A stretch of DNA of 64,000 bases from Niallia sp. FSL W8-0635. GTDB lineage: Bacteria > Bacillota > Bacilli > Bacillales > Cytobacillaceae. The translations under genes and the position numbers were made by a program. The stretch is from positions 3,512,501 through 3,576,500 of the forward strand of contig NZ_JBBOYD010000001.1 of assembly GCF_038007965.1 (NCBI RefSeq), written 5' to 3'. The notes below the pieces were generated by a model. It worked only from the letters and a program-made list of their open reading frames with translations, made no database searches and was not told where the DNA came from. Positions within the stretch are counted from its first letter, which is position 1. The number at the start of each line of letters is the position of its first letter. Below are positions 10,993 to 56,574 of the stretch, piece after piece.

Positions 10993-11157
10993 TAAAAAAA
11001 ACCTTTCTGCAAGACGAGCAGAAAGGTTTCTAATATTAGTAATATCCCTTTCTCTCATCTATCAAAGCTTAATGCTTTGTGTGAATTGGCACCGTTTCAG
11101 TATACTGACGGTTGCCGGGTTTCATAGGGCACATCCCTCCACCTCTCTTGATAAGAG
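10993..11157 (-). promoter_or_regulatory. SAM-I (S-box) riboswitch with terminator, controlling metNPQ
   Basis: Read on the minus strand, the aptamer (11157 to 11052) has the S-box core. P1 is CTCTTATC pairing with GATGAGAG. Between them are GAGGTGGAGGGA, CCCTATGAAACCCGGCAACC and ACGGTGCCAATTC. About 20 bases on there is a strong terminator: ACCTTTCTGC pairs with GCAGAAAGGT (11001-11028), followed by a T8 run. When S-adenosylmethionine binds, the terminator should form and stop metNPQ expression. The metN start is about 90 bases further on. Confidence 0.95.
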
Positions 11158-52999: not shown

Positions 53000-53041
53000 A
53001 AAAGGAGAAAGGCTGAATGATTGACAGCCTTTCTCCTTTTT
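52998..53041. terminator. Bidirectional terminator between yoaK-like and ABC-F genes
   Basis: AAAAAGGAGAAAGGCT and AGCCTTTCTCCTTTTT form a 16-bp stem. It overlaps both stop codons. Confidence 0.9.
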
Positions 53042-54926
53042 ACTTACGATTCATAAGCCCATATAGTTCCTCCCACTGCCTTTCAAGCTCCTCCTTTTCA
53101 GAAAACAACTTCTCCAATTTATCCCAATCCGTTTCTATTTCCATTCTTTTCTCTAATTCTGCAATCTCTCTTTCCACTCCTTCTACTTCCTTTTCCAAAT
53201 AAATTTGATTAAAAGTAGCTTCCCTCTCCTGTTTTTCCTTAATCGGTGCTTTCTCTTTTTTTGATCTTACGGAATTACTTAGTAGATTCTTTGACGTTTG
53301 TCTTTCCTTTGACTTTTCTCTTGCATACGTATAGTTCCCCTCATAACAATGAACTCCCTTTTCTTGAATCCAATAAATCTTTTGAAATAGCTTATTTAGA
53401 AAATAGCGATCATGGGAAACAGCAAGAATCGTGCCATCAAAATCTTCTAAAGCCTCTTCTAATACTTCACGAGACTCAATATCTAAATGATTGGTTGGCT
53501 CATCTAGAATTAATAGATTGATTTCTTGATACATAAGCTGAGCTAAACGAAGCCTCATTCTCTCTCCACCGCTTAAATTGCTTACCTTTTGAAAAACAGA
53601 ATGACCATAAAAGAGGAATTGAGCTAAAATATGTCTAGCCTCTCCCTCTGTCACATGCACTTCATTTCGAAAAGCTTCGATCACTGTTTCTCCTTCCATT
53701 TCCATTAATACATGCTGAGAAAGATAACCAATTTTCACATTACTTCCAATCTTAACTTCACCTTTATCTGGCTCTAATTGTTGAAGTATCATCTTCAACA
53801 AAGTTGATTTCCCCGATCCATTCTCTCCAATAATTGCCACTCTTTCTTTATAGCTTATTTGCATTTGAACTTGCTGAAACAATAGCTGGTCGCCAAAGCT
53901 TTTTGATACATTCTTCAGCTGAATAACATCCTTCCCACTTCGGTCACTTGCTTCCATATCGAAATTCATTTTCTTTCTATTTATAATAGGGCGAGCTAGT
54001 TTTTCCATTCTTTCAATAGCCCTTTCCATATTTCTCGCTCGCTTATGCAACCCTTCATTAGGCGGATTTGCCCGATTCGCCCATTCACGAAGTCGTTTGA
54101 TTGCTTCTCTCATTTTCTTGATTTTCTTTTGCTGTTCCTCATATGCCTGAAACTCTCTTAAAAGTTTTTCCTCCTTTTCCTTTGTGAAATTTGTGAAATT
54201 AGTATGATAGGTTGTTACTTCTCCATCTTCTAAATCTACCACCTTTTGAATCACTTCATCTAAAAAGTAGCGATCATGGGAAACCACTAAAATGGTACCA
54301 TTATAATCCTGAAGAAATTTCCCAAGCCACTCGACTGCCATTAAATCCAAATGGTTCGTCGGTTCATCCAATAAAAGAAAATCAGGTTCTTGGAGGAGTA
54401 GCATCGCTAAACCAACCTTTGTTTTTTCCCCTCCACTTAAAGCTCCATATTCCTTCATGACTAACTGCTCAATTTTTAGCCCATTAACCATTTTCTCTAT
54501 TTTTGCTTCCATTTCATATCCACCAGCATTCGTAAAATACTCCTGCAATTTTCCATACTCCTCCATTAATAGCAATAGCTGTTCTGGGTTGATATCCCTC
54601 GCCATTTCCTGTTCCATCTGTTTCATCTTCCCTTCTATCGTTTCGAGGTCAGAAAATGCCTTTTTTAATACTTCCTTCACCTTCATAGATTGTTCATATT
54701 CCGGAATTTGTTCTAAATATCCAATCTTTAATCCTTTCTTCCAATGGATTTGTCCAGCATCGGGGGTTTCCTTTCCTGCAAGTAATCGAAATAATGTGGT
54801 CTTTCCGCTCCCATTTCTTCCAACAAGACCAACTCTTTCTTTTTCCTTTATTTCTAATGATATGTCTTCAAATATTGTATTTCCTCCGTACATCTTCGCT
54901 ACATGATTGACACTGCAAATAATCAT
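53040..54926 (-). CDS. ABC-F family ATPase (possible ribosomal protection protein)
   Basis: A 628-residue soluble protein with two ABC cassettes and no membrane domain. First: Walker A GRNGSGKTT, signature LSGGEKTKVGLAML, Walker B LLLDEPTNHLD. Second: GENGSGKST, LSGGERMRLRLAQL, LILDEPTNHLD. The interdomain linker (about 240-330, FQAYEEQQKKIKKMREAIKRL, with ANRANPPNEGLHKRARNMERA) is the ribosome-contacting PtIM. A C-terminal coiled coil follows (EVEGVEREIAELEKRMEIE). ATG with AGGAG 10 bases upstream. ABC-F proteins act on the ribosome E site; some (VmlR, Vga, Msr) give antibiotic resistance. The attenuator-like leader at 55008-55075 supports an inducible resistance role, but the subfamily is not certain. 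Confidence 0.88.
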   Translation of the reverse strand: MIICSVNHVAKMYGGNTIFEDISLEIKEKERVGLVGRNGSGKTTLFRLLAGKETPDAGQIHWKKGLKIGYLEQIPEYEQSMKVKEVLKKAFSDLETIEGKMKQMEQEMARDINPEQLLLLMEEYGKLQEYFTNAGGYEMEAKIEKMVNGLKIEQLVMKEYGALSGGEKTKVGLAMLLLQEPDFLLLDEPTNHLDLMAVEWLGKFLQDYNGTILVVSHDRYFLDEVIQKVVDLEDGEVTTYHTNFTNFTKEKEEKLLREFQAYEEQQKKIKKMREAIKRLREWANRANPPNEGLHKRARNMERAIERMEKLARPIINRKKMNFDMEASDRSGKDVIQLKNVSKSFGDQLLFQQVQMQISYKERVAIIGENGSGKSTLLKMILQQLEPDKGEVKIGSNVKIGYLSQHVLMEMEGETVIEAFRNEVHVTEGEARHILAQFLFYGHSVFQKVSNLSGGERMRLRLAQLMYQEINLLILDEPTNHLDIESREVLEEALEDFDGTILAVSHDRYFLNKLFQKIYWIQEKGVHCYEGNYTYAREKSKERQTSKNLLSNSVRSKKEKAPIKEKQEREATFNQIYLEKEVEGVEREIAELEKRMEIETDWDKLEKLFSEKEELERQWEELYGLMNRK

Positions 54927-55007: not shown

Positions 55008-55040
55008 AAAAAAGCCATGGAAAACAAAGTTCTCCATGGC
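55008..55040 (-). promoter_or_regulatory. Attenuator (intrinsic terminator) in the ABC-F leader
   Basis: On the minus strand GCCATGGAGAAC and GTTTTCCATGGC pair over 12 bp (one G-U) around a TTT loop, followed by TTTTTT. This is a strong terminator placed 82 bases before the ABC-F start and 5 bases after the stop of a 9-codon leader frame. A third TCCATGG copy downstream (near 54974-54981) could pair with either arm. The layout matches ribosome-mediated attenuation of ABC-F resistance genes. Confidence 0.75.
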
Positions 55041-55045
55041 AACAT

Positions 55046-55075
55046 TTAAGGAAAAAGCCAGATACACTTTTCCAT
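55046..55075 (-). CDS. Candidate 9-residue leader peptide of the ABC-F gene
   Basis: ATG-GAA-AAG-TGT-ATC-TGG-CTT-TTT-CCT-TAA encodes MEKCIWLFP. AGAGGT lies 11 bases upstream. The stop is 5 bases before the terminator hairpin, so a ribosome stalled on the last codons would cover the 5' arm and prevent termination. Expression is not demonstrated; the frame is short, and the assignment rests on position. Confidence 0.5.
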   Translation of the reverse strand: MEKCIWLFP

Positions 55076-55156
55076 TAAATATAAATACCTCTAAATGTAC
55101 TTTTAGAAAGATCCATATATAGTTCCTTCTATTAATAGATGACTTGGTAAGCCATT

Positions 55157-55184
55157 AAAAAAAGAGCGCATGAAAATGCACTCC
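55157..55184 (-). terminator. Terminator after the 45-residue gene
   Basis: On the minus strand GAGTGCAT-TTTC-ATGCGCTC (one G-U pair) is followed by TTTTTTT. It lies 37 bases past the stop at 55221 and separates that gene from the ABC-F leader. Confidence 0.85.
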
Positions 55185-55220
55185 TTTAACCGTCCATATA
55201 GATGTGGGTAAGAGATGTTT

Positions 55221-55358
55221 TCACTGTTTTAGTTTGCTATTTAGTTGTTTAAAAAAGGGCACACTTATCCCGTTAACAACTACCATCGCAAATTTTGCAC
55301 GGTTAATATATAGACTTTCTATCATATAACCTTGCACTAAAACAGTTGAACTTAACAT
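55221..55358 (-). CDS. Small hypothetical protein, 45 residues
   Basis: A 45-residue frame beginning MLSSTVLVQGYMIESLYINR and ending in a basic KQLNSKLKQ. GAGGTGGGAAGG lies directly upstream of the ATG, and a strong terminator follows. These two signals are the main support for a real gene. I recognise no family. It lies between the ABC-F gene and a divergent LacI gene, and could relate to either. Confidence 0.55.
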   Translation of the reverse strand: MLSSTVLVQGYMIESLYINRAKFAMVVVNGISVPFFKQLNSKLKQ

Positions 55359-55515
55359 CCTTCCCACCTCTTTTCTTTTATAAGTTAGTTTTATTATATC
55401 TTTTAAAAACATCTCACACAAGAGAATTAATAAGAAAAATCAGTAATATTGGAATCATAGCATTTTTCCTTTAATAATTTAAGCATGATTCTTACCTTTT
55501 AGAAGAAAATCCTTC

Positions 55516-55593: not shown

Positions 55594-56574
55594 ATGAGTG
55601 TCACAATTAAAGATATAGCTAAAACTGCTGGTGTAAGTTATTCTACAGTATCAAAGGCACTTCGAGATAGCCCATTAGTAAAAAAGCCTACGAAAGATCG
55701 AATTATAGCAGTGGCCAATGAATTAGGCTATCAGCCAAATGTGGCCGCTAGAAGTCTTGTATCAAAAAGATCATTTACAATTGGCGTTGTATGGCCAACC
55801 ATTGAACAAACCGTTCTTTCTACACTTATTACAACAATTAACAAGAAACTGGAGCAGCTTTCTTATACGACATTAATATCGATTAATGAAGTAGAGTCAG
55901 CTTTAAAAATCTTTAATCGTTATCAAGTGGATGCCATATTAGTATTTGATTCCAGTCAATCCATCGATTCCTATACATCAGATGTTCCTATTGTCACCTA
56001 TGGACTAGCAAACAAAGAAACAGTCTATCCCATCATTGATGTGAATCGTCTAAAATCTACTTACATTGCTGTGCAACACCTTCACAATATCGGGCATCGT
56101 TACATTAGCTATATTGGGGAAGTAGAAAAAGAAGAGCTGCAAAGAGAAAAGGTACAAGGCTTTACTCAAGCTATCTCCAATCTAGGATTACCATCTTTTC
56201 CAGATCAAATAGTGAAGGTACAAGATTTTGACCAATACGATGGCTACGAGGCTACTAAACAATTACTTGCTTCCACTAAACTACCAACCGCTATTCTCAC
56301 TGGTAGTCATGATCTTGCTCGAGGTGCCCTTCAAGCAATATACGAAAAGAAGCTCTCCATCCCAAATGATATTTCTATTATTAGTTATGATAATATTACA
56401 GCAATAGATCGTTTCGATACTCCATTGTCTACCGTAGGAGTACCATTAGATAAAATAAGTGATAAGATAATCGAAGTATTAATGAATGTTATAAGTGGCA
56501 AAGAAATTGAAACAACCATTTTTCTTGAACCAGAATTAAGAATAACAACTTCTTGTTCAACACCTTTAAAATGA
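55594..56574 (+). CDS. LacI-family transcriptional regulator
   Basis: A 326-residue LacI/GalR protein. The DNA-binding head reads VTIKDIAKTAGVSYSTVSKALRDSPLVKKPTKDRIIAVANELGYQPNVAARSLVSKRS. The effector domain follows from about residue 60 and ends in the usual IFLEPELRITTSCS. GGGGG lies about 8 bases before the ATG. It is convergent with the sugar-use cluster on its right, so it may control that cluster, but its only visible operator is its own. The effector is unknown. Confidence 0.87.
   Translation: MSVTIKDIAKTAGVSYSTVSKALRDSPLVKKPTKDRIIAVANELGYQPNVAARSLVSKRSFTIGVVWPTIEQTVLSTLITTINKKLEQLSYTTLISINEVESALKIFNRYQVDAILVFDSSQSIDSYTSDVPIVTYGLANKETVYPIIDVNRLKSTYIAVQHLHNIGHRYISYIGEVEKEELQREKVQGFTQAISNLGLPSFPDQIVKVQDFDQYDGYEATKQLLASTKLPTAILTGSHDLARGALQAIYEKKLSIPNDISIISYDNITAIDRFDTPLSTVGVPLDKISDKIIEVLMNVISGKEIETTIFLEPELRITTSCSTPLK

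Follow-up and report, generated by a model that had tools for sequence, protein, structure and literature searches.

The ABC-F gene in the window (the whole 64,000-nucleotide stretch of Niallia sp. FSL W8-0635 DNA analysed here) is likely under the control of an rliI-type transcription attenuator that senses ribosomes and has two tandem terminators. A conserved regulator is located 82-346 nt upstream of a 9-codon frame on which a preliminary description of the region had centred, and includes a promoter, a strong ribosome binding site (RBS), an upstream ORF (uORF), an anti-RBS and a first terminator (T1). The candidate sensor with evolutionary support is the 45-codon uORF, rather than the 9-codon frame, and the leader probably lets the cell switch the ABC-F gene on when ribosomes are blocked. 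The preliminary description had proposed an attenuator made of a leader peptide and a terminator. The leader type, a translated uORF followed by a terminator, and the gene class (NF000355) hold; the role of main sensor given to the 9-codon frame does not. Leaders of this kind may form a Bacilli-wide family, inclusive of Listeria rliI, in which a long uORF within a three-way junction is coupled to termination before an ABC-F gene, and a 23-nt pause-like core is common to the leaders of ABC-F, Msr-, Mef-, Mph-like, Cfr, FexA and Erm genes, each with its own sensor peptide; the chances that this broader picture is correct are about even.

The ABC-F gene and the set of leaders

The product scores 494.5 bits against NF000355, "ribosomal protection-like", whose cut-off is 380, and falls far below the cut-offs of the named resistance models among those listed (NCBIfam). 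By sequence score, EttA-like factors are among the best solved relatives, alongside VmlR and PoxtA. Within the genus, orthologs are found in 6 of 13 genomes, the window's own included (100, 94, 81, 79, 79 and 70% identical). The leader of one genome of the genus (L005) is identical to that of a Niallia circulans record (L021). Ortholog loci number 86 (57-100% protein identity), the search for related loci having kept the best 80 of 487 relatives, and 81 of their 84 leaders are distinct. The working list of 80 distinct leaders omits the duplicates L020, L021 and L027 and the partial L056. Alignment A1 holds 76 of the 80, as L066, L081, L092 and L096 were left out because of inserts or a short match. 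Alignment A2 and the covariance model R1 were built from 29 of 46 diverse leaders, without Listeria. The features of the region are collected in Table 1. A divergent gene on the plus strand (55594-56574), which reads as a putative LacI-type regulator, starts about 170 bp from the leader promoter. A SAM riboswitch resides elsewhere in the window (11052-11157, minus strand).

Table 1. Features of the ABC-F leader region, in window coordinates
Feature	Position	Strand	Evidence
Promoter-like site TTGTGT-17-TATAAT	55393..55421	-	9/12 consensus matches
rliI-type leader RNA	55157..55385	-	nhmmer, Rfam rliI; start inferred from promoter, end at T1 U-tract
uORF Shine-Dalgarno (SD) GAGGTGGG	55363..55370	-	invariant and nearly invariant columns, 76 leaders
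P0 5' strand, RBS and start codon (GTGGG..ATGTT)	55354..55367	-	swap test z -12.1, 0/2000 permutations
Conserved uORF MLSSTVLVQGYMIESLYINRAKFAMVVVNGISVPFFKQLNSKLKQ, 45 codons	55221..55358	-	0/76 in-frame stops, 27-codon block
P1 5' strand ACTGTTTTAG	55337..55346	-	swap test z -11.1; covarying pairs
P3 hairpin of three-way junction	55296..55336	-	88% of cells paired; both-side changes in 3/8 pairs
P2 hairpin, upper part (TAGTTGTT / AACAACTA), GGG/CCC cap	55242..55282	-	swap test z -12.3; two helices in the covariation analysis
Core ACGGGATAAGTGTGCCCTTTTTT, putative NusG-type RNA polymerase pause hairpin and TTNTTT	55251..55273	-	63/76 leaders; pattern search
P1 3' strand CTAAAACAGT	55223..55232	-	swap test; covarying pairs
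P0 3' strand, anti-RBS AACATCTCTTACCCAC	55204..55219	-	swap test, covariation
Terminator T1, hairpin 55183-55164, T7	55157..55183	-	78/81 distinct leaders; arms swap test z -10.6
13-codon frame MDLSKSTFRGIYI (55116-55075) with SD AGAAGGA	55075..55130	-	read in window, L002, L003
9-codon frame MEKCIWLFP (ATG to TAA)	55046..55075	-	present; kept only in nearest relative
Terminator T2, CCATGG-type 12-pair hairpin 55040-55014, T6 at 55013-55008	55008..55040	-	further terminator in 74/81 distinct leaders
ABC-F gene, 628 aa, ribosomal protection-like	53040..54926	-	NF000355 494.5 bits

A conserved leader with a translated uORF

A leader profile derived from positions 55382-55157 matches 84 of the 86 ortholog loci after iteration (nhmmer), and 83 when the window sequence is used alone. 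The two negative loci have only 130 and 92 nt of sequence upstream, and one of the 84 matches (L056) is partial. A promoter-like site with at least 10 of 12 consensus bases was found in 30 of 80 leaders (within the 75 nt ahead of the element), against 1 of 240 control windows, and the leader element begins about 20 nt past the site. T1 is at its place in all but three of the distinct leaders.

The uORF is about 37-46 codons long across ortholog leaders. Its gap-free 27-codon block is free of in-frame stops throughout, while stops occur in the other forward frames in 64 and 66 of the 76 leaders, and in the reverse frames in 47-66. Codon changes are conservative, the mean BLOSUM value being 0.55 versus -0.41 in column shuffles (sd 0.32, maximum 0.37 of 60). 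The lack of stops and the conservative changes make it very likely that the uORF is translated. The position of its stop varies among leaders, and release at a fixed codon is therefore not key. In L056 the uORF finder returned no frame, and in L078 it picked an incorrect one.

RNA structure

In the consensus fold of 29 leaders the RBS and the start codon of the uORF are paired to the strand directly 3' of the uORF (P0). Inside this RBS/anti-RBS pairing are helix P1, the P3 hairpin and the long P2, the whole being a three-way junction of 54 pairs. Changes on both sides are found in 19 of the 54 pairs, versus 9.3 in shuffles (sd 1.9; 0 of 500), 89.7% of cells pair in the consensus structure versus 44-50% in slid versions, and covariation is 0.189 versus 0.048-0.075; the alignment was not fitted to the structure, the structure itself being derived from the same sequences. 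When the swap test was run on the 76 leaders, P1, P2 and the RBS/anti-RBS pairing gave z values on a par with those of the T1 arms, used as yardstick (Table 1), while the GGG/CCC cap gave -2.2, and unrelated segments -0.7 to 2.2; the test carries no correction for relatedness, which is the same for its controls. The narrow segment SD x ACATCTC does not covary in the same test (z 1.1), and support comes from the longer RBS/anti-RBS pairing. RNAalifold, run on the 76 leaders, retained only 17 pairs. The notion that the R-A-[KI]-F stretch of the uORF is conserved purely as peptide was discarded, since the same bases pair in P3.

How the leader may work

According to the model favored here, polymerase would pause past the P2 cap, and a ribosome could consequently load on the uORF ahead of anti-RBS synthesis. 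As long as the uORF is untranslated, the RBS/anti-RBS fold would keep the anti-RBS off the T1 left arm, and the same would be done by the passing ribosome if the uORF is translated to its end without delay. With the anti-RBS kept off, T1 would form, and an rliI-like RNA of about 230 nt would be released. Ribosomes held early on the uORF, as by a 50S-targeting antibiotic, would leave the RBS occupied; the anti-RBS could then pair with the left arm of T1, and transcription would run on into the gene. T2 would be a second gate after T1, and an insert with two overlapping mini-frames between the two terminators may add a local sensor in this lineage.

Folding of transcripts cut ahead of the T1 right arm pairs RBS and anti-RBS in 75 of 76 leaders, and anti-RBS and T1 in none; when the RBS is blocked in the fold model, the anti-RBS pairs with the T1 left arm in 71 of 76. 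Pairing of anti-RBS and T1 is still obtained when the T1 left arm or the anti-RBS is shuffled (88% and 84%), and the antiterminator is for this reason not specifically supported, while the RBS/anti-RBS fold is. With ribosome footprints chosen by the analyst, a single ribosome at R-A-[KI]-F frees the anti-RBS in 0 of 76 leaders, one with a second behind in 53, and one at the uORF end again in none. The anti-RBS x T1 left arm duplex has an energy of -7.05 versus -5.70 for shuffled sequences (z -3.0), a wider duplex of -8.96 versus -8.29 (z -3.8), both modest margins; the 3' part of the latter, taken by itself, does less well than shuffled sequences (-5.51 versus -6.31). At equilibrium, the full leader of the window keeps T1 in every state tried. 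After the shuffle control, the antiterminator made by the anti-RBS and the T1 left arm is retained only as a proposed component of the switch.

The 9-codon frame, the mini-frames and the second terminator

Several elements of the preliminary description are found as reported. The frame MEKCIWLFP is there, and 5 nt past its stop comes the 12-pair hairpin with its run of six Ts. The distance to the ABC-F start codon, given as 82 nt, was about right, the exact figure being 81. A third CCATGG, proposed as an alternative pairing segment, exists at 54980-54975, but is not conserved: the closest relative has CCATGA instead, and the next ones lack it. It was dropped as a conserved alternative arm. Conservation had been named as a check of both frame and hairpin. 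A terminator at the place of the hairpin is conserved: the count of 74 of 81 distinct ortholog leaders takes in any further terminator ahead of the start codon, and it is because of this conservation that T2 can be regarded as real and old. A CATGG-like arm pair, searched with a loose pattern, follows T1 in 64 of 81 leaders. The peptide is kept, with one residue changed, in only the nearest of five other members of the genus. The 94% identical relative has MEKCICLFP, the 81% relative a stop after three codons, both 79% relatives a different frame (MDRKEDRSFL); in the 70% relative no frame adjoins T2. MEKCIWLFP was consequently abandoned as a conserved sensor, the frame being lost or replaced in relatives of the genus.

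MEKCIWLFP is preceded by an SD-like AGAGG at 12-nt spacing. Among 5000 dinucleotide shuffles of the 114-nt spacer, a frame with an SD-like tetramer arose by chance in 2.5%, and in 11.5% when no SD was required, the criterion being an ATG frame of 4-20 codons ending at most 12 nt from the hairpin. The preliminary description mentions neither the 13-codon frame MDLSKSTFRGIYI nor the conserved leader farther upstream. The SD of the 13-codon frame is better placed (AGAAGGA, 8-nt spacing), and the TAA of this frame overlaps the ATG of MEKCIWLFP. The 94% and 81% relatives retain both the end of the 13-codon frame and its stop-start overlap (the L003 frame ends in CTFRGIYI). T1 and T2 are 118 nt apart in the window, and often about 10-50 nt apart in orthologs. 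The mini-frames look like a recent insert of the lineage between T1 and T2, and the 9-codon peptide looks like a local addition to the leader.

Relationship to Listeria rliI and spread in Bacilli

On the evidence of sequence models the leader is homologous to Listeria rliI, an RNA found at the same place, before the orthologous ABC-F gene, in L. monocytogenes. The Rfam model of rliI (RF01487), catalogued as a Listeria sRNA, aligns along its entire length with the window leader and scores 23 bits, below its gathering score of 45 (E 9e-4 for 741 bases, 1.5e-3 for the genome as a whole); no other match to it at E <= 0.1 occurs in the whole genome. R1 recovers Listeria rliI at 30.9 and 30.3 bits, homology being thus seen in both directions, and the nhmmer leader profile detects it at 1.4e-9. 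R1 also recovers ten of ten held-out leaders (ten of the 17 omitted from the model), and has no match at any of 5 paralogous ABC-F loci. The rliI of L. monocytogenes records (282-292 bits) is directly upstream of the ABC-F ortholog, which is 54% identical to the gene product of the window. Records L132 and L133 have rliI at 1196-1435 and the ABC-F gene at 1501, with guaB and a gene of glycoside hydrolase family 1 as neighbours in L133. Judging by these neighbours, the ABC-F gene is presumably lmo2760. Inspection of L132 by eye revealed the same frame core, which reads FLYIVRAIF there. Searches with the rliI RNA alone retrieved 32 loci, 31 of which are directly upstream of a relative of the ABC-F gene (48-100% identical, the window's own included), the sole exception being the weakest match; in genus g63, rliI was matched in 19 of 19 genomes, and the LhrC model in none of them. 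As to published work, rliI has been reported as a putative conditional terminator upstream of lmo2760 (PMC8079631, accessible text). The accessible portions of the rliI literature (PMC8079631, PMC11394854, PMC4959528, PMC5623016) describe no uORF, fold or relatives outside Listeria.

R1 matches occur in 112 of 398 genomes of the class, and in 45 of 146 genera. Among the 68 that were inspected, 61 are accompanied by a same-strand ABC-F gene 31-276 nt away: 30 of the 30 best, for which distances assume a 1500-nt flank, and 31 of 38 weaker ones. The remaining seven precede Cfr-, FexA- or MFS-type genes in six cases, and a short-chain dehydrogenase gene in one (L176). The Cfr methylase is assigned by NCBIfam in L185, and putatively, by sequence reading, in L191; the efflux protein of L189 is above the FexA cut-off, that of L184 is FexA-like and below it; the MFS proteins of L182 and L196 are putative, by sequence reading, the latter having no NCBIfam match.

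The model recovers, in addition, the leaders of ABC-F genes on staphylococcal plasmids (17.5-26.3 bits, E 0.022 to 9e-5). The plasmid loci L134-L136 (proteins 50% identical) carry an rliI-type uORF (MFLIAYCCRYLQIIRNKFS...) and no evident T1. A hairpin seen by eye before the gene could hide its SD, which suggests translational control.

A pause-like core shared with other resistance leaders

The P2 cap matches the geometry of NusG-dependent pause sites, in which a hairpin precedes a TTNTTT located at -11 to -6 of the non-template strand (PMC12288461); such pauses are known in the tlrB, vmlR and ribD leaders (PMC6851288, PMC9226507, PMC12288461, in the sections available). In 63 of 76 leaders TTNTTT is found 0-1 nt from the GGG/CCC hairpin, versus a background of 2.3%. 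By analogy, the P2 cap may pause polymerase.

Matches to the core pattern ACRGGAKNNGTNTGYCCHTTTTT number 53 and come from 45 of 299 genomes; the reversed control has none. All 53 matches were looked at. The downstream gene encodes an ABC-F protein in 42, though in G171 it starts as far as 1.3 kb away. This share is expected, because the pattern was made from ABC-F leaders; the other genes are not. These include, in one case each, Cfr, FexA, Erm, Mef-like and Mph-like genes (the last two below their cut-offs), a gene for an RlmA-like methylase, recognized by sequence reading and with no NCBIfam match, and, again by sequence reading, a putative ribD behind an FMN riboswitch. Four matches have no resistance-type gene. 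Where the gene is of the Msr-, Mef-, Mph-like, Erm or RlmA-like type, the core comes after an MTHSMRLRF-type uORF, known as the ErmK/ErmDL arrest peptide (PMC4335068, PMC10314930, as far as accessible). The "MRLRF-type" flag used to sort leaders wrongly includes G323, whose uORF is of the rliI type, and overlooks G307, with SVRLRF in its leader. The core is conserved as nucleic acid, since it is outside the uORF in MTHSMRLRF leaders, and first codon positions vary in the rliI-type uORF. For the same reasons, conservation of NGI[RS]MPFF as peptide was rejected. Sharing of the core among fexA, cfr and erm leaders was not found in a search of mainly open-access literature; the available text of PMC4335068, comparing streptococcal mef(E) and erm(K) leader regions, notes no homology beyond the peptide.

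Alternative readings

Could a ribosome stalled on MEKCIWLFP and blocking T2 be the main drug sensor? The complete arrangement of SD-like element, frame and adjoining terminator, the low frequency of SD-preceded frames in spacer shuffles and the persistence of the frame in the nearest relative speak in favor, as does the precedent of MsrD, reportedly controlled by a short leader frame ahead of a terminator (PMC10314930, accessible part). Yet the frame is cut, replaced or missing from 81% identity downward, T2 is conserved even where no frame fits, and the better SD belongs to the frame ending on the MEKCIWLFP start codon. This makes the reading unlikely, although MEKCIWLFP may have been added to the conserved leader in this lineage. 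Comparably improbable is that the junction is a ligand-binding riboswitch, an aptamer for a drug or a metabolite in which the uORF is incidental. A covarying three-way junction closed by the anti-RBS helix, with highly conserved loop positions, is what an aptamer could look like; the coding constraint described above, however, makes translation very likely, and in leaders with the same core the uORFs encode peptides of the known ErmK/ErmDL arrest type.

A role as source of a trans-acting small RNA, proposed for Listeria rliI, would make the position before ABC-F genes secondary. RliI has been reported to bind the lmo1035-lmo1036 mRNA (PMC8079631), and Rli21/RliI to bind Rli51 (PMC11394854), both according to the accessible text, and a function in trans is compatible with cis attenuation. 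As the main function it is quite doubtful: the RNA stays before ABC-F genes in nearly all the R1 matches inspected, and uORF, RBS fold and T1 are kept over ortholog leaders. Tandem constitutive terminators, finally, might do no more than protect the gene from read-through, regulation playing no part, and the conservation of both T1 and T2 is in line with that. Conservation, however, extends upstream to a promoter-like site, a coding-constrained uORF and a covarying RBS/anti-RBS fold, and shielding is the least likely of these alternatives, a very improbable one.

Comparison with known leaders

The proposed attenuator with its long uORF has known parallels in the vmlR, cplR and tlrB leaders (PMC9226507, PMC10201436, PMC6851288, accessible portions). 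Like the leaders of the vmlR, cplR, msrD and lmo0919 kind, it has a uORF with an RBS upstream of a terminator, the uORF here being under coding constraint. The vmlR leader of B. subtilis is similar for the presence of a uORF inside an anti-antiterminator hairpin, of TTNTTT and of an intrinsic terminator before an ABC-F gene. Its uORF has three codons (MIN), and its SD is reported to be single-stranded (PMC9226507, sections available); leaders of the window type differ in the long uORF set in a three-way junction, the paired RBS and the two terminators. The uORFs of known ABC-F leaders considered for comparison have 3-6 codons (MIN, MRI, MK[L/Q], MAGN, MYLIFM), as given in the accessible literature. 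In the tlrB (yxjB) leader of B. subtilis a uORF, a NusG-dependent pause hairpin and a terminator are found, but the peptide has 9 codons and ends in RYR, the gene encodes an rRNA methylase, and translation attenuation acts in addition (PMC6851288, in the part consulted). In the genomes searched, several ErmK/ErmD-type leaders (MTHSMRLRF...), including one that the window's own genome has ahead of an Msr-type ABC-F gene, have the same ACGGGAnnnGTnTGYCC-T5 core, but outside and downstream of a uORF encoding a short macrolide-arrest peptide.

If the family is real, sensor peptides would be exchangeable parts mounted on a common platform for polymerase pausing and attenuation, a poorly understood Listeria RNA would be explained as one member of a widespread type of ABC-F leader, and the leader would offer a long, conserved candidate arrest peptide. 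From the spread of the core it seems that, in Bacilli, inducible resistance to ribosome drugs of several classes may be built on a single polymerase-pausing module; were this so, inducible resistance genes as yet unknown could be searched for systematically.

A few single leaders deserve mention. The Msr-type locus of the window's own genome (L245, C1:2875900-2879300, minus strand) has a MTHSMRLRFLALNK uORF and the same core, and its ABC-F product scores 562 bits, under the Msr cut-off of 680. The Cfr/FexA-type leaders L184, L185, L189, L191 and L206 have a common uORF pattern, VKVSGDF..TGxVCPFL / KIGN..LADKGSSLSFF, which surrounds the same or a similar core. In L205, L234 and L239 the core follows GTGGATAA(C), near no recognised resistance gene. 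In L214, near position 1500, sequence reading places the core between an FMN-riboswitch-like aptamer and a terminator before the putative ribD.
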